The notes beneath the pieces are model-generated. The model worked only from the letters and a program-made list of their open reading frames with translations. It did no database searches and was not told the origin of the DNA. 64,000 nucleotides of DNA from Deltaproteobacteria bacterium (GTDB lineage Bacteria; Myxococcota_A; Polyangia; DRWM01; JAAZOP01). The stretch is from the NCBI GenBank assembly GCA_016218765.1, contig JACRCZ010000069.1, positions 1 through 64,000 on the forward strand. The letters run 5' to 3'. Positions 3,615 to 54,161 of the stretch are shown piece by piece. The translations under genes and the position numbers were made by a program. Position 1 is the stretch's first letter. Each line of letters starts with the position of its first letter.

Positions 3615-3640
3615 GTGCTTCTCCTCCTTCGGGCAGGTCC

Positions 3641-3683: not shown

Positions 3684-5738
3684 CTACTCCCTCACGAGGA
3701 TCATCCCCGACCGCGGCGGAAGCTGGACCGTCTCGCCCAGCGAGCCGCCGGGGCCGACGACGAAGCGTTGGCCCTCGCCGGCGGCGCAGACGTGGGCGCC
3801 CCAGCCGCCGCCCGCGTCCTCCTGGCAGAACGTGTTGACCAGCGTCGTGCCCTCGGGGAACGACGTCGCCATTCCCGTCCCGCCCAGGTACGGCCGCGCG
3901 TTGGCCTCGTGCGACGAGTTCACCACCACCAGCACGGTCTGGCCGCCGTCGCTGCGCTCGAAGGCGAAGATCCCGGCGTCGTCGGTGCCGCCGTCGGCGG
4001 GTGTGGCCGAGGCCCAGACGACGCGCAGGTCGCCGCGGCGCAGCGGCGCGTACCGTTTGCGCAGCTCGATCAGGGCCTGGATCGTGCGGAAGGTGGGGTG
4101 GGAGGTGTCGAAGCTCGAGCGGCTCATGTCCTCGCGGTTCGCGGGGTCGTTGCCGCCGAAGAACCCTTGTTCGGTGCCGTAGTAGATGCACGGGATGCCG
4201 TCCTCGGTGAGCAGGAAGAACAGGGCGTTGTGGTGGGTGCGCGCGTCGTTCCACAGGAAGCGGAAGCGTGCGACGTCGTGGTTGTCGAGGAAGTTGACCA
4301 TCAGGCGGCGGGGGCTGACCGCGCGGCCTTCCGCGTCGATCGGTCCGTCCGCGTTGGGCGTGTCGGTGTACAGCGGCGCGCGGGTCGGGTCGTCGGGATC
4401 GCCGAGCCGGTCGCGGAAGAGGCTCTCGATCTCCGCGGTCGGCCGGCCCCGTCCGAAGACGTTCTCGAAGACGCGGTACTTCTGCGAGAAGTAGAACACC
4501 GAGTCGACCTGTCCGTCGCCGACGTAGCTCGCCAGGAGGTCGTCGTGGCCGTCGAACGCCTCGCCGAACAGGAAGAACTGCCGCTTGCCCAGCGCCTTGG
4601 CGTGCTGCCGGATCCTCGGGCAGAAGTCCTGCCAGAACTCGCGTTCCACGTGCTTGAGCGTGTCGATCCGGAAGCCGTCGAAGTCGGCGACCGTGATCCA
4701 GTGCGCGTAGGCCGCGAAGAGGGCGTCGCGCACGTCCTGCCGCGTCGTGTCCAGGTCCTTGAGGCCGCCCGGGAAGTCCCCGCGCATCTCCTGCTCGCGG
4801 ATGTAGTCGCGGCACGCGGGCGTCCCCCACCAGTCGACGGTCGCCGGGTCGCAGGCCGGGTCGCCGAGCCGCCAGCAGCACGCCTCGCCCTCGTGCCGCC
4901 ACACGGTGACGCGGCCGCGGCGGTTGTACCAGGCGGGGTTGTCGAAGCCCGCCGGCTCCGGCGGCATGCGATTGATCGCGGGATCATAGACCCACGCGAT
5001 CGGCGCGGGGCCGGACTCGCCGAGCGAGGTGAACGCCTGGATCCCGCGGCCGTCGTAGTCCGGATCCCACTCGGTGGTCCGCGTGACGCCGCCGGGGAAG
5101 AAGTCGCGGGTTTCGGAGCCGTACGCCGGGCCGCCGCCGCCGATCAGGAATTCGTCGGCCTGCCCGTTGCCGTTGATGTCGTAGTAGAAGAGCTGCCCGA
5201 TGTGGTTGGTGACGATGTCGAGGATGACCTTGATCTCCTTCTTGTGGCAGGCGTCCACCAGCTCGCGCAGCTTGGCCAGATCCCCGAAGTGCGGATTCAC
5301 GTGCACGAAGTCCTGCGCCCAGTAGCCGTGGTACGAGCCGAACCCGGCGTCGGATTCCAGGTTCTTCACCACGGGACTGATCCACAGCGCCGTGACGCCC
5401 AGCGTCTCGAGGTAGTCGAGGCGATCGATGATCCCCTGCCAGTCGCCGCCGTGGTACGAGCCGGCGCGGTTCCGGTCGACGCCCCAGTCGTTGTTGGGAT
5501 CGCCGTTTTCGAAGCGGTCGACCATGATCTGGTAGATGACCTCGTCGCGCCAGTCATCGACCTGCATCGGGGTCACGAAGGAGCGATCACGGACGGCCGA
5601 TGCATCCACGCAGGAGGAGGAGAGGAGGAGGAGGGCGCAGAGGGGGAAGAAGGAAACCACAGATGGACACAGATGGACACAGATGGGGGAGGGTCGGGAG
5701 AGGAAAATCGGGGTGTGCGACCCGGTCCATCGACTCAT
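3684..5738 (-). CDS. secreted alpha-amylase, glycoside hydrolase family 13
   Basis: 684 residues. All four GH13 conserved regions are visible: DIVTNH near 172, GFRIDTLKHV near 357 (nucleophile Asp), FGEAFDG near 393 (acid/base Glu) and FLDNHDVAR near 487 (third Asp). It should hydrolyse alpha-1,4-glucan outside the cytoplasm. The start ATG overlaps the stop of the upstream GH15 gene (ATGA) and has AGGAG before it, so the two are translationally coupled. The N-terminal hydrophobic stretch ends LLLLSSSC, a plausible lipobox, so it may be a lipoprotein. The first half of that stretch (PICVHLCPSVVSF) is the in-frame reading of a 10-bp DNA repeat. A fused reading frame upstream of this ATG is only a shadow of the GH15 gene. 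Confidence 0.9.
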   Translation of the reverse strand: MSRWTGSHTPIFLSRPSPICVHLCPSVVSFFPLCALLLLSSSCVDASAVRDRSFVTPMQVDDWRDEVIYQIMVDRFENGDPNNDWGVDRNRAGSYHGGDWQGIIDRLDYLETLGVTALWISPVVKNLESDAGFGSYHGYWAQDFVHVNPHFGDLAKLRELVDACHKKEIKVILDIVTNHIGQLFYYDINGNGQADEFLIGGGGPAYGSETRDFFPGGVTRTTEWDPDYDGRGIQAFTSLGESGPAPIAWVYDPAINRMPPEPAGFDNPAWYNRRGRVTVWRHEGEACCWRLGDPACDPATVDWWGTPACRDYIREQEMRGDFPGGLKDLDTTRQDVRDALFAAYAHWITVADFDGFRIDTLKHVEREFWQDFCPRIRQHAKALGKRQFFLFGEAFDGHDDLLASYVGDGQVDSVFYFSQKYRVFENVFGRGRPTAEIESLFRDRLGDPDDPTRAPLYTDTPNADGPIDAEGRAVSPRRLMVNFLDNHDVARFRFLWNDARTHHNALFFLLTEDGIPCIYYGTEQGFFGGNDPANREDMSRSSFDTSHPTFRTIQALIELRKRYAPLRRGDLRVVWASATPADGGTDDAGIFAFERSDGGQTVLVVVNSSHEANARPYLGGTGMATSFPEGTTLVNTFCQEDAGGGWGAHVCAAGEGQRFVVGPGGSLGETVQLPPRSGMILVRE
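5658..5687 (-). repeat. CACAGATGGA tandem repeat (10-bp period, 3 units) within the amylase signal-peptide codons
   Basis: Three 10-bp units, read on the minus strand as the ICVHLCPSV part of the amylase leader. The same family occurs at 42045-42074 (opposite orientation, 5' region of recG) and 55336-55365 (upstream of an MBL-fold gene). Confidence 0.85.
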
Positions 5739-8065
5739 GATCGGCTCCTTGCGCAACGGAGAAGCAGCGCGCCGAACAGCAGCAGGCCCAGCATAGCGCC
5801 CGAGTGCGGGGAGGGGACCGGGATCGAGCAGGAGCAGCCGCCGTCGCCGCCGTCGCGGGTCCCCGAGTCCGCGTCCGCATCCGCGTCCGCCGACGCATCC
5901 GCCTCCGCCGACGCATCGGCGTCGGCTTCGGCGGACGAGTCGGCTTCGGCATCCGCGTCGCCGTCCGCATCGGCGTCCGCGTCCGCGTCGGCGCCGGGCT
6001 CCGGACCCCACTCGCCGCACAGCGGTTCGGCGACGGTTCCTTCGGCGCGGTCGGCGAGGGCCAGGACGTACGCGCCGGCGCCGAAGCCGACCATCGGCGT
6101 GGCGCCTTCGTAGTTCGAGGTCGTCGCTTCGTACAGCTCGGCGATCAGGTCCTGGTTGAGCCTCGACTGGTCCGTCACCCGGTCGACCAGCGGCGTCGCT
6201 TCGGCGGTGCGTCCGGCAAGGCGGAGGGCGTCGGCGACGCGGAGGTCGATGACGACCCATTCCTGGTTGTCGTACCAGCCGCCGTCGTCGTTGCGGAAGA
6301 AGCCGTGGCCGGAAGGCGGTCGCAGGTTCGCGAAGAAACCGTCCAGCGTCGCACGGCCGACGAGGCCGTCGGGCCGCACGAGAGCCCAGTCGAGCGCCTC
6401 GACCACCGCGGCGTCGCGGTAACCGAAGCCGGCAGTCAGCTCCTCGCGGCTCTGGGCGATGGAGAGGTCGGGCGCGAGAAGGTGTTCGAGGATCGCGTCG
6501 CGGATTGAAAACGCGGCGGCGCGGTACTCCGTCGCCTTGGCGGCATCGCCCATCCGCTCCGCAAGCCGCGAGGCCGCGCAGAGCCCGCGGGCGGCGGCGA
6601 TCGAGGTGTAGGCGTAGCGTTTCTGCCGGCCGTTCCAGTGGACCTCCCAGATCGACGAGTCGGGGGCGATGAGGCCGGTGGCGGGATCGCGAAGCGCGAC
6701 GAGCACGTCGGCGATCTCGTCGCGGATGGCCGGCCAGTACGGCTCCCAGAATGCGTCGCCGGAGGCGTCGACCAGGTTCCACAAGGCGCCCAGGAACAGC
6801 CCGAAGCCGTCGAACTCGATGTTCGGACCGTTTTCGTTCCAGTCGCTCTCTTCCGTGCCGTTGCCGAAGTAGCGCGTGACGCTGATGCGGTAGGGCTGTC
6901 CGACCTCGGTTTGGTAGTCCCCGGCGTCGGCGTCGAGCATGAAGCGCAGGCCCTCGCGCCCCTCGTCGGGGTGGCCGGCGCGGACCAGGGCATCGATCGC
7001 GTAGCAGGCGTCGCGGACCCACGAGATGTTCCACTGGCCGGGGGGAAGGGAGGCGACGATCTGGCCGTTTCCCCCGCCCGCCTCGCGCACCTGCGCCATG
7101 CGCAGCACCGCCGCGGATTGCGCCCACACGATCGCCTCGTCCGCGGACAGGCCGGAGGGTGGCGCCGCGTGCCACGCCGCCCAGGCCGCTTCCTCGGCGG
7201 CGAGGATCGCCTCGGCGTCACGTCCCCCGACCCACCCGCGCAGGTCGGACAGCGCCGACGCGGAGGAGCCCGAGGCGTCGAGACCGGCGAGCGCGGCGCG
7301 GGAGACCGACGCCCCCGCCGGCAGCGGTCCCAGGTCGTACTGGAAGCCGGCGACGGCGTCGGAGACGGTGCCCGAATCTGCAGTGTCCACCAGGTCGCTT
7401 CCGGCGTTCACGGCGGGCCAGGGGTTGTTCGGCGAGCAGGCGTGCCGCGACGGCGTCGAGCCCGGAAGATACGCTGCCGCCGCTCCGCTCGGCCCCGTCT
7501 CCACGTACGCACCCGCCGTCCCGTCCCACAGGATCCGCTCGCCGTCCATCCCCGGCTCGGGCCGTCCCGAGCCCAGGTGCAGGTTGTGGATGGTGAACAG
7601 CGATACGGCGCCGGACGCAGTGCCGACCGCGTTGGTCACCCGGACGACCATCGCCAGACCCGGACGAGACAGGCTCCAGGGGGCGAAGTAGAAGCATTCG
7701 ATGCCGAGTCCGCGCCAGGTCTGGGCGGTACGGAGGATGCCGGTGCCCGGGACGTACCCCGCCTCGTCCAGGGGCACTTCGGAGAGCCACGTGGCCTCGG
7801 TCCCGACGCGGATGCCGAAGTACGTGTCGTAGAGGAAGTCGCGCGTCTGCGTCGCCGCCACGTCGGACGTGGGGTACTTGTAGATATGCTCGTGGAACCC
7901 ATCGACGCGCCGCGTCGCCAGGTCGTACGTGACCGCGCCGTACCCGTTCGAGGAGACCATCTTGTCGAACGAGTGGTGGGGCTGGGCAAGAGCGAGGGAG
8001 GGAAGGAGGAGAACCGACAACGCTCCAACGCTCCAACGCTCCAACGCTCCAACGCTCCAGCCCAT
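5735..8065 (-). CDS. secreted glucoamylase-like glycoside hydrolase family 15 protein with MYXO-CTERM-like tail
   Basis: 776 residues: signal peptide (1 to about 27, ending LPSLALA), N-terminal beta-sandwich-like region, an (alpha/alpha)6 GH15 catalytic domain (ISWVRDACYAIDALV, NIEFDGFGLFLGAL, IWEVHWNGRQKRYAYTS), an Asp/Ala/Glu-rich linker at about 690-735, then GGCSCS, a hydrophobic segment and a terminal Arg cluster. The tail resembles the MYXO-CTERM surface-sorting signal. GH15 enzymes release glucose from the non-reducing ends of starch or dextrins. It is coupled to the downstream alpha-amylase by ATGA overlap, so the pair would take starch to glucose outside the cell. GGAAGGA precedes the ATG. 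The leader region is largely encoded by an 8-bp tandem repeat. Confidence 0.85.
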   Translation of the reverse strand: MGWSVGALERWSVGALSVLLLPSLALAQPHHSFDKMVSSNGYGAVTYDLATRRVDGFHEHIYKYPTSDVAATQTRDFLYDTYFGIRVGTEATWLSEVPLDEAGYVPGTGILRTAQTWRGLGIECFYFAPWSLSRPGLAMVVRVTNAVGTASGAVSLFTIHNLHLGSGRPEPGMDGERILWDGTAGAYVETGPSGAAAAYLPGSTPSRHACSPNNPWPAVNAGSDLVDTADSGTVSDAVAGFQYDLGPLPAGASVSRAALAGLDASGSSASALSDLRGWVGGRDAEAILAAEEAAWAAWHAAPPSGLSADEAIVWAQSAAVLRMAQVREAGGGNGQIVASLPPGQWNISWVRDACYAIDALVRAGHPDEGREGLRFMLDADAGDYQTEVGQPYRISVTRYFGNGTEESDWNENGPNIEFDGFGLFLGALWNLVDASGDAFWEPYWPAIRDEIADVLVALRDPATGLIAPDSSIWEVHWNGRQKRYAYTSIAAARGLCAASRLAERMGDAAKATEYRAAAFSIRDAILEHLLAPDLSIAQSREELTAGFGYRDAAVVEALDWALVRPDGLVGRATLDGFFANLRPPSGHGFFRNDDGGWYDNQEWVVIDLRVADALRLAGRTAEATPLVDRVTDQSRLNQDLIAELYEATTSNYEGATPMVGFGAGAYVLALADRAEGTVAEPLCGEWGPEPGADADADADADGDADAEADSSAEADADASAEADASADADADADSGTRDGGDGGCSCSIPVPSPHSGAMLGLLLFGALLLRCARSRS
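8018..8057 (-). repeat. CAACGCTC tandem repeat (8-bp, 5 perfect units) in the signal-peptide codons of the GH15 gene
   Basis: Five perfect head-to-tail units beginning eight bases inside the start codon. Read on the minus strand they encode WSVGALERWSVGAL, the n-region of the signal peptide. Confidence 0.9.
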
Positions 8066-8094
8066 TCGTGGTTCCTTCCCGTTCCGCCCCGGCC

Positions 8095-8118
8095 CGACCG
8101 CCCGACCGCTCGACCGCT
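8095..8118. repeat. CGACCGCT tandem repeat (8-bp, 3 units) in the divergent intergenic region
   Basis: Three units (one CGACCGCC, two CGACCGCT) upstream of the GH15 gene. A related CGCTCGAC tract is at 54574-54604. The rest of the 242-bp divergent region (8066-8307) shows no gene and no convincing promoter by eye. Confidence 0.7.
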
Positions 8119-8307
8119 CGCTTCCCCGTCACCTTGCCGCGCGGCGGTCGCGGGTGCAAGCGTGTTTCTTTGTCGAGTGCGCCAAGGATTCCGGCGGGGC
8201 GGATAGCGGCGCACATCGGCCCACCGAAGCCGTGAAGATCGGCCAAGGAAGCGGAACGTAGGGTGGTCGCACCGGCCGATGGAGCCGCGGAAGGAAAGGG
8301 GCGAACC

Positions 8308-20455: not shown

Positions 20456-20475
20456 GGCCCGGTGCCCGACCCCAC

Positions 20476-24779: not shown

Positions 24780-25505
24780 ATGAAGAATCTGTTGTGTTCC
24801 GTGGTGTTCGTGCTTGGCGTGTCGGCGTGCAGCGGGGCGCTCCCGGTACCGACCGGGGTGGGCGGGGGCGACGAGGTCGTGGCGAAGTACGACCGGTGGC
24901 TGGCGCACGTCGACGAGCTGCAGGCATCGGTGGAGGAGGCGCAGCGGTGGGTCCTGGACGCGCCGAAGGAGCTGGCCGTCACGCTCGGCCTGCCCGAGAC
25001 CGCGACGCTGGACGAGATCCAGACGGCGATCCGGGAGAAGCTCGCGGCCGCCGGCATCACGGCGTCGGGGTCGCTGACGGTGGAGATCAACGCCGAGGCG
25101 GGCGCATCCGGCAGCGCGGCGGCGGGCCCGGGCGGCGCGTCGGCGCAGGGCGAGGCGCACGCGTCGGTCGAGGTGCGGATCGTGGCGGCGGCGGGCGTGG
25201 AGCTGAACGCCGAAGCGCAGGCGGTGCTGGACGCGGTGAAGCTGTGCCTGGAGCGCGTCGCGGGCATCAAGCCGCGACTCGAGGCGATCATCGCGAACCT
25301 GGAGACCGTGATCAGCGAGGGTCGCGCCCTCATCGTCTCGATGCCCGACGACCTCACCGGCCTCCTGGCGGCGAAGATCGCCGAGTACACCCCGAAGTTC
25401 AACGCGCGCATCGACTTCCTCGTCGGCTTCAGCGGCTCGGCCGCCGGCACGGTCGAGGCGTCGGCCAGCATCACCGTTTCCGTCTCCGCCGGCGTGACGG
25501 GGTAG
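24780..25505 (+). CDS. helical lipoprotein of unknown function
   Basis: 241 residues. The signal MKNLLCSVVFVLGVSAC (lipobox GVSAC) follows a GGAGGAG ribosome-binding site. The mature protein is rich in Ala, Glu and Val with long amphipathic helices (DELQASVEEAQRWVLDAP, VLDAVKLCLERVAGIKP), broken by a Gly/Ala/Ser segment, and ends in an alternating Ser/Val beta stretch. It is not a family I can name; possibly a periplasmic helical-bundle or coiled-coil protein. It has its own predicted promoter. Confidence 0.7.
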   Translation: MKNLLCSVVFVLGVSACSGALPVPTGVGGGDEVVAKYDRWLAHVDELQASVEEAQRWVLDAPKELAVTLGLPETATLDEIQTAIREKLAAAGITASGSLTVEINAEAGASGSAAAGPGGASAQGEAHASVEVRIVAAAGVELNAEAQAVLDAVKLCLERVAGIKPRLEAIIANLETVISEGRALIVSMPDDLTGLLAAKIAEYTPKFNARIDFLVGFSGSAAGTVEASASITVSVSAGVTG

Positions 25506-25537
25506 TGCGGGAAGTGCGGGGAGTGCGGGGAGTGCGG
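25505..25537. repeat. GTGCGGGGA tandem repeat (9-bp, 3.7 units), left arm
   Basis: Begins in the stop codon of the helical lipoprotein. It can pair with the inverted copy at 25585-25610, so it may form a terminator-like stem after the gene. Confidence 0.75.
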
Positions 25538-25584
25538 CCGCGCGCTCGCCGCCGGTCTTCCCGCTCTTCCTGCTCTTGACGCTC

Positions 25585-25610
25585 TTCCCGCACTCCCCCC
25601 GCACTCCCCC
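25585..25610. repeat. CTTCCCGCACTCCCC repeat, right arm (inverted relative of 25505-25537)
   Basis: Imperfect inverted repeat of the upstream GTGCGGGGA tract, separated from it by about 47 bases. It lies 40 bases before the TerB-like gene. Confidence 0.65.
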
Positions 25611-25650
25611 TGCTTGCCCCTTCCCCCCCTTTCGGGTACATCTTCCGTCC

Positions 25651-31868: not shown

Positions 31869-33083
31869 GTGCAGCTCGACGACGACGCTCGCCGCCTGCT
31901 GGACGGCGCCGGCGGCGAGGCTGCCCGCAAGTCGATGGAGATCCTGGTCGCCCTGGGCACGATCTACGAGGCCGAGCGGCTGATCCCGGTGCGCTCCGCG
32001 CAGATCTCCGGCGTCTCGTACGCCAACCTCGGCGACGCGGGCCTGGAGCTGCTCGAGGCGTGGGCGCGGGACGGGCGCGTGGCCTGTCCGTCGACCCTCA
32101 ATCCGGCCGGCATGGACCTCGTGGCGTGGCGGGCGATGGGCATCCCGGAGGAATTCGCGGAGCGGCAGCTGCGCATCGTGCGGGCCTACGAGCGCATGGG
32201 GGTGGTGCCATCGTGCACGTGCACCCCGTACTTCGCCGGCAATCGGCCCGCGGCGGGGGAGCATGTCGCGTGGTCCGAGTCCTCCGCGGTCACCTTCGCC
32301 AACTCGGTGCTCGGGGCCCGCACGAACCGCGAGGGCGGCCCGTCGGCGCTGGCCGCGGCGCTCTGCGGGCGGACGCCCGACTACGGCCTGCACCGGGACG
32401 GGCCGCGGGCGCCGCAGTTCCTCGTGCGCGTGGAGGCTCCGCTTCCCTCCGCGGCGCACTGGGGAGCGCTGGGCGCGGCGCTCGGCAGGCTCGTCCCCGG
32501 CCGCGTGCCGCTCCTCGAGCTGTCCGCCGGTGCGGCGGGGGACGCCGGCGCGCCGCCGGAGGAGCACCTCATGGCGCTGTCGGCGGCGCTGCCGACGTTC
32601 GGCGGAACCTCGATCTTCCACGTCGCGGGCGTGACGCCGGAGGCGGGACGGCATCCCCGGCCGGCGGACGGCGTGGCGATCGGGCGGCGGGACGTCGCCG
32701 AGGCTTTCGCGGCGCTGGACGACGGGGTCGAGCCGGATCTCGTGTTCGTGGGCTGCCCGCACGCGTCGCTCGCGACGTTGCGGCGCGTGGCCGGGCTGCT
32801 CGGCGGCCGGCCGGTACGGCGGACGCTGTGGGTCGCGACCTCGCGGGCGGTGCGCGAGCGGGCCGTGGGGGAGGGGCTGGTGGGTGCGATCGAGGCGAGC
32901 GGCGGGCTGGTGGTGGCGGACACGTGTTTCGTCGTGGCGCCGCTGGCGGGGCGGTTCCGGGCGGCGGTGACGGACAGCGCGAAGGGGTGTTTCTATGCGC
33001 GGGGGCCGAACGCGATGAAGGTGCGGCTGGCGTCGTTGGAGGAGTGCGTGGAGGCGGCGGTGGGGGGGAGTCGGGAGTCATGA
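31869..33083 (+). CDS. aconitase-X large subunit, probable phosphomevalonate dehydratase large subunit
   Basis: 404 residues from a GTG two bases after the UbiD stop. The AcnX catalytic-subunit hallmarks are clear: AARKSMEILVALG, a cysteine pair in SCTCTPYFAGNRP, GEHVAWSESSAVTFANSVLG, ARTNREGGPSALAAALCG and FVGCPHASL; several of these Cys would ligate an iron-sulfur cluster. In archaea this subunit and its small partner dehydrate mevalonate 5-phosphate to trans-anhydromevalonate 5-phosphate. Other AcnX proteins are cis-3-hydroxyproline dehydratases, but the UbiD, IPK and UbiX neighbours favour the mevalonate role. Its last codons and stop lie in a 7-bp tandem repeat. Confidence 0.85.
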   Translation: MQLDDDARRLLDGAGGEAARKSMEILVALGTIYEAERLIPVRSAQISGVSYANLGDAGLELLEAWARDGRVACPSTLNPAGMDLVAWRAMGIPEEFAERQLRIVRAYERMGVVPSCTCTPYFAGNRPAAGEHVAWSESSAVTFANSVLGARTNREGGPSALAAALCGRTPDYGLHRDGPRAPQFLVRVEAPLPSAAHWGALGAALGRLVPGRVPLLELSAGAAGDAGAPPEEHLMALSAALPTFGGTSIFHVAGVTPEAGRHPRPADGVAIGRRDVAEAFAALDDGVEPDLVFVGCPHASLATLRRVAGLLGGRPVRRTLWVATSRAVRERAVGEGLVGAIEASGGLVVADTCFVVAPLAGRFRAAVTDSAKGCFYARGPNAMKVRLASLEECVEAAVGGSRES

Positions 33084-49953: not shown

Positions 49954-50028
49954 GTCCTTTTCTGGGGGCGGGTGCATCCCCCCGGATGGGGGCAATGGGC
50001 CCCTCTGCGGACCGGAACAGGGCTTTCG

Positions 50029-50060
50029 CGCAGGGGCGCAGGGGTGCAGAGGCGCAGGGT
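50029..50060. repeat. CGCAGGGG tandem repeat (8-bp, 4 units) downstream of mtnA
   Basis: CGCAGGGG, CGCAGGGG, TGCAGAGG, CGCAGGGT; same family as 2439-2462 and 13856-13887. The remaining gap 49954-50091 holds G-rich sequence without a gene. Confidence 0.85.
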
Positions 50061-50091
50061 GGGGCAAGTGGCCGGGTGGCTGGGGCGGCGG

Positions 50092-54022: not shown

Positions 54023-54096
54023 CCCAACCGTCCCGCGTCGCGCGCTCTCACCGACCTTCAGAACCTCTCTCGCACGTTCGGGACCACCTTGCTGCA

Positions 54097-54161
54097 CCGA
54101 ACCGCGCCCTTCTGGGCGCGGCCTTCGCCGCATCGGCCGCGGGCTGAAGCCCGCGGTTCGG
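54097..54161. repeat. double-hairpin dispersed repeat, copy 2
   Basis: CCGAACCGCGCCCTTCTGGGCGCGG then a 15-bp spacer and CCGCGGGCTGAAGCCCGCGGTTCGG: the reverse complement of the element at 3018-3084, with the spacer changed but both stems intact. It lies between tatB and the MBL-fold gene, both on the minus strand, and may terminate transcription arriving from the MBL-fold gene. Confidence 0.8.

Follow-up and report, generated by a model that had tools for sequence, protein, structure and literature searches.

The Neisseria opa genes carry CTCTT repeats in the region coding for the signal peptide, and frame switching inside this signal peptide has been demonstrated (Stern et al. 1986, cited in PMC3899988; PMC13183285). 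The start of the GH15 (glucoamylase-type) gene described here is like opa in that a short tandem repeat with a unit not divisible by 3 lies in the signal-peptide coding region, and the unit number sets the frame. It is unlike opa, where switching is demonstrated, in being composed of few copies of an 8-bp unit, in offering an in-frame start codon in every third unit, and in belonging to a mainly intergenic dispersed family. Dispersed heptamer repeats of the type GGGNATC occur in Xanthomonas and Nostoc, and in the Xanthomonas study 83% of the repeats had stayed G-rich repeats in their original position (PMC4692102). Like these, the arrays of the genome studied here (G000) are simple repeats with long units, found genome-wide and mainly outside genes, with a small preferred unit number. 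However, their units are 7 to 10 bp long, several families occur together, and one family is swapped for another at slots shared with a sister species (G003). TAACTGA direct repeats have been described in Beggiatoaceae, cyanobacteria, and Bacteroidetes (PMC4679880). They resemble the G000 arrays as dispersed short tandem repeats that are patchy across phyla, with some adjoining start codons, but they lie mostly upstream of starts, whereas the GH15 array is coding and sits inside a signal peptide. According to the Beggiatoaceae paper, no transmission mechanism for the repeats was evident (PMC4679880). The G000 arrays are of the same kind as the dispersed heptamer repeats and differ from them in unit length, family mixture, family exchange, and translation as signal peptides. 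A literature search for 8-bp repeats like the GH15 array returned nothing direct. As argued below, this coding array is probably species specific and one of a genome-wide population of short arrays, filling a slot behind a start codon.

We refer to the whole analyzed stretch of 64 kb as the window. It comes from G000, a draft genome that is apparently a MAG (79.6% complete, 154 contigs). The features around the GH15 gene are listed in Table 1. The Pfam Glyco_hydro_15 score of the gene was 44.7 bits, compared to a curated cut-off of 22, and the match covered residues 327 to 527 of the protein, which is part of the domain only. Comparison of the GH15 protein sequence with the PDB at an E value of 0.01 gave no match.

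Table 1. Features at the GH15 and alpha-amylase genes of the window.
Feature	Coordinates	Strand	Remarks
Alpha-amylase gene (PF00128), lipoprotein-type signal peptide	3684..5738	-	downstream of GH15
10-bp array CACAGATGGA x2.9 (plus-strand unit), antisense within alpha-amylase signal peptide	5658..5686	-	
GH15 (glucoamylase-type) gene, 776 aa	5735..8065	-	Pfam PF00723, E 1.1e-11
Predicted Sec signal peptide MGWSVGALERWSVGALSVLLLPSLALA, 27 aa, then QP	7985..8065	-	cleavage site by eye
8-bp tandem array, unit GGAGCGTT on coding strand, 5.25 perfect copies	8018..8059	-	
In-array TTG, ORF frame (+21), possible alternative start giving LERWSVGALSVLLLPSLALA-QP	8042..8044	-	
GH15 start codon ATG	8063..8065	-	seven bases before first full array unit; aligned in G003
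Ribosome-binding site AAGGA	8073..8077	-	7 nt upstream of GH15 ATG; identical in G003
Second 8-bp array, GGTCGAGC type, 3.2 copies	8092..8120	-	leader upstream of GH15 ATG

An earlier note on this DNA had reported five perfect 8-bp repeats at 8018 to 8057. We found them present and exact (plus-strand unit CAACGCTC), together with two further matching bases, which gives 5.25 copies with a 100% match. In Markov-3 simulations of the window, 0.07 period-8 arrays with at least 2.5 copies were expected per 64 kb. A 749-kb sample of G000 contained a single perfect period-8 array longer than the one at the GH15 start. A typical short read is far longer than this 42-bp array, so that, for reads of at least that type, a collapsed assembly at this place is unlikely.

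No ATG, GTG, or TTG precedes the ATG at 8065 in the open frame, and it is the sole ATG at the gene start. Ahead of the mature protein, the other possible starts are two TTG codons within the array (+21 and +45) and nothing else. The start next in line is Met36, and its use would remove a PHHS motif that is conserved in the congeners G001, G002, and G003. Because there is no start codon between the array and the conserved mature sequence, and because a start at Met36 would lose PHHS, the array is coding. The greater part of the n-region in the predicted signal peptide MGWSVGALERWSVGALSVLLLPSLALA-QP is encoded by it. Signal peptides and their cleavage sites were judged by eye throughout. By this measure, the GH15 peptide has the hydrophobic core VLLLPSLALA, an A-L-A cleavage site, and a mature start shared with G001 to G003, but the single Arg of its n-region is offset by a Glu. 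We infer that it is functional. The earlier translation of the repeat-encoded leader was correct, and the proposal that the repeat builds the n-region agrees with the coding position of the array, seven bases inside the ATG, for a signal peptide recognized by eye.

We compared this region with those of the three congeners. The GH15 protein of G003 is 80% identical to that of G000, and those of G001 and G002 are 67 to 69% identical. The G003 gene start shares with G000 the leader GGGGCGGAACGGGAAGGAACCAC, the AAGGA, and the position of the ATG; three copies of CACCGATGGA then replace the 8-bp array, and the mature start that follows, AQPHHSFDKM, is identical to that of G000. The G003 signal region as a whole reads MDTDGHRWKQGTGYYPVAAGVLLFLLPSAAQA. 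In G001 and G002, the GH15 signal peptides are plain and array-free. The earlier note had made its case depend on variation among relatives. Relatives do differ at the array, but by replacement of the array as a whole, and no gain or loss of one unit was seen.

As 8 is not a multiple of 3, each unit gained or lost was expected to shift the frame, and the variants that we computed bear this out. Read from the ATG, 2, 5, and 8 units are in frame, and 1, 3, 4, 6, and 7 units run out of frame into stops at codons 137 to 287. However, every unit also contains a TTG; these codons are spaced 8 bp apart, and one per 24 bp is in the ORF frame, so that with at least four units the full-length signal-peptide ORF can begin within the array; in the computed variants, an in-frame TTG giving LERWSVGALSVLLLPSLALA-QP is then present for any unit number. 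If translation initiated there, the same 20-residue signal peptide would be made whatever the number of units. The unit carries GGAG besides its TTG, and the length of LERWSVGALSVLLLPSLALA-QP is more typical than that of the 27-residue version. We nevertheless regard initiation at the TTG as unlikely: TTG is a weak start codon, the ATG has a good ribosome-binding site and is aligned in the sister species, and in G003 no start follows its own ATG, which lies in its own array.

A second reading takes the array for a contingency locus as in Neisseria opa, in which strand slippage would make cells alternate between exporting the enzyme, at 2, 5, or 8 units, and lacking it. The array is indeed coding, perfect, and long for G000, and the out-of-frame variants with 3, 4, 6, and 7 units meet their stops within the gene. 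Frame loss could hit both enzymes, since the alpha-amylase ATG overlaps the GH15 stop (ATGA), and the unit number of the neighboring array upstream of the ATG differs between the species (3.2 copies in G000 versus 4.6 in G003). Slippage of this kind is still quite improbable as the role of the array, which has only five units and whose frame can be bypassed by the in-frame TTG from four units on; between G000 and G003, each represented by one genome, the array was replaced and no unit-number variant was seen, and like arrays occupy many intergenic spacers without any frame. To our knowledge, a secreted starch enzyme is not the usual immune- or phage-facing product of phase variation, which is a weak argument against a contingency locus. 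Judged from the sequence, an on/off switch of secretion is possible and could be leaky. A regulated secretion switch is, however, unnecessary for explaining the data.

The reading of the GH15-start array as one of many similar arrays draws on a survey of G000. An unbiased scan of 408 kb detected perfect arrays with periods of 7, 8, 9, and 10 bp at 56, 22, 32, and 27 per Mb, respectively (23, 9, 13, and 11 arrays, versus 2.7, 1.0, 0, and 0 expected from a Markov-4 model). The density of arrays in this genome was 1.50 per kb in intergenic DNA versus 0.048 per kb in genes, an approximately 31-fold difference, and 38 of the 187 spacers of at least 40 bp held an array; the gene calls came from a home-made codon model whose seed was a set of five genes of the window, namely the GH15 gene and four others with Pfam support at the usual score. 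The GH15-start array is a member of this genome-wide set of 30- to 40-bp arrays with 7- to 10-bp units, and its unit GGAGCGTT differs by one base from the dispersed unit GGAGCGGT. Array lengths are narrowly distributed, with a median of 35 bp in the 8-bp family and of 29 bp in the 10-bp family, in which nearly all arrays have three units. GGAGCGGT-type arrays most often follow a stop codon: out of 55, 24 lie between genes, closest to the 3' end of a gene and on its sense strand, with many at most 10 bp from the stop. The earlier reading as a gene-specific switch was not supported, as the array is one of hundreds of dispersed and mostly intergenic arrays, few of which lie within signal peptides. 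A role at the level of the nucleic acid (a protein-binding site, a structured leader, or quadruplex-like translation control, as proposed for the Beggiatoaceae TAACTGA repeats) is very improbable: the array does stand right at the start codon with a second array closely upstream, and dispersed 7-bp repeats near starts are already known (PMC4679880, PMC4692102), but the predicted RNA folding of the start region was no better than that of shuffled sequences (z = 0.27 and -0.10), a different sequence occupies the same place in the sister species, and the preferred site of the family is behind genes.

We next consider how the families are distributed among genomes. Matches of the GGTCGAGC type, with mismatches allowed, numbered 111 in G000 and 175 in G003, GGAGCGNT matches 76 and 14, and matches to the 10-bp CACMGATGGA 243 and 215; G001 and G002 had none of the three. 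Controls with reversed patterns gave 0 to 1 matches. In a phylum sample of 379 genomes, from which G003 was left out, the 10-bp CACMGATGGA was confined to G000, apart from three single matches with two mismatches, which is chance level. Exact GGAGCGTT arrays are also found in Chloroflexales, Ardenticatenales, Verrucomicrobia, cyanobacteria, Prevotella, and others, with many copies in some genomes. From these counts and the occurrence in unrelated phyla, the arrays are a patchily distributed class of dispersed repeats. That the 8-bp and 10-bp families go together in other phyla was not supported, as three genomes rich in GGAGCGTT (G403, G407, and G412) had 0 to 1 CACMGATGGA matches.

G000 and G003 share array places. 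Of the window spacers, 8 of the 9 that hold an array correspond to a G003 spacer that also has one, versus 3 of the 12 that hold none (Fisher p = 0.0075), in a test that covers 21 spacers of one 64-kb window and in which two or three assignments are debatable (the G003 repeats at 3615 and 16202, due to chance or coding, and the window array at 20472, which is below the score threshold). The unit family differs between the two genomes at 8018 (8 bp in G000, 10 bp in G003), at 25498 (9 bp and 8 bp), and at 33068 (a different 7-bp unit), and related unit changes were found at 2438 and 13855. At 5658, CACAGAT is present in 3 of 3 units in G000 and in none in G003. On this comparison, array slots seem to persist across G000 and G003 while their contents change.

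Three further places in the window were compared with G003. At 25498 to 25615, the spacer between two genes has an inverted pair of 9-bp arrays, and the G003 equivalent consists of 8-bp arrays that are likewise opposed. At 49954 to 50089 the window has a GCGCAGGG array; G003 has approximately 8.5 kb of extra sequence there, with junctions that lack an array. The segment at 54096 to 54161 is a dispersed, partly palindromic element of about 66 bp with the core CCGCGGGCTGAAGCCCGCGGTTCGG, found at about 38 places in G003, and the orthologous G003 slot has TCAGCG-type repeats instead.

The GH15 gene is one of several whose export signals coincide with arrays. The signal peptide of the alpha-amylase, MSRWTGSHTPIFLSRPSPICVHLCPSVVSFFPLCALLLLSSSC, is encoded over the antisense 10-bp array, and further clear signal peptides over arrays were found in the same genome at L217, L220 (two genes), L225, L227, and L237. 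At L225:18706-18788, a lipoprotein signal peptide, MRASGRAVERPSGRAAERPSGGRRSAVGGRLAATICLLAAVAAGC, is made from about seven 8-bp units. A preference of arrays for the starts of signal-peptide genes was not found (19 of 215, versus 25 of 341 other genes; p = 0.52), and this lack of enrichment makes the arrays at such starts look like tolerance and not like a special association. At its other end, the GH15 protein has an Ala/Asp-rich linker and a hydrophobic tail (5738 to 5960), which resemble the tails of many proteins in the genus. The tail is possibly a sorting signal; comparison with the NCBIfam tail models gave no match.

We return to the GH15-start array as a member of the genome-wide population that fills a slot behind a start codon. 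According to this model, the slot behind the GH15 ATG would be old and its contents would turn over, to give five GGAGCGTT units here and three CACCGATGGA units in the sister species. As hardly any short n-region is unacceptable in an export signal, an array in the slot is translated as the n-region as long as the frame stays open. The turnover would combine slippage within arrays with copying between sites. More tentatively, some copying process may rewrite arrays of 30 to 40 bp at fixed slots, swapping unit families, and, behind start codons, rebuild export signals in frame; we consider this possible but doubtful. If the model is true, new signal peptides would often arise naturally from repeat arrays, and two sister species would export the same enzyme with signals that differ in their repeats. 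Slots that the species share but fill with different families would offer a concrete handle on the spread and turnover of dispersed short repeats in bacteria.
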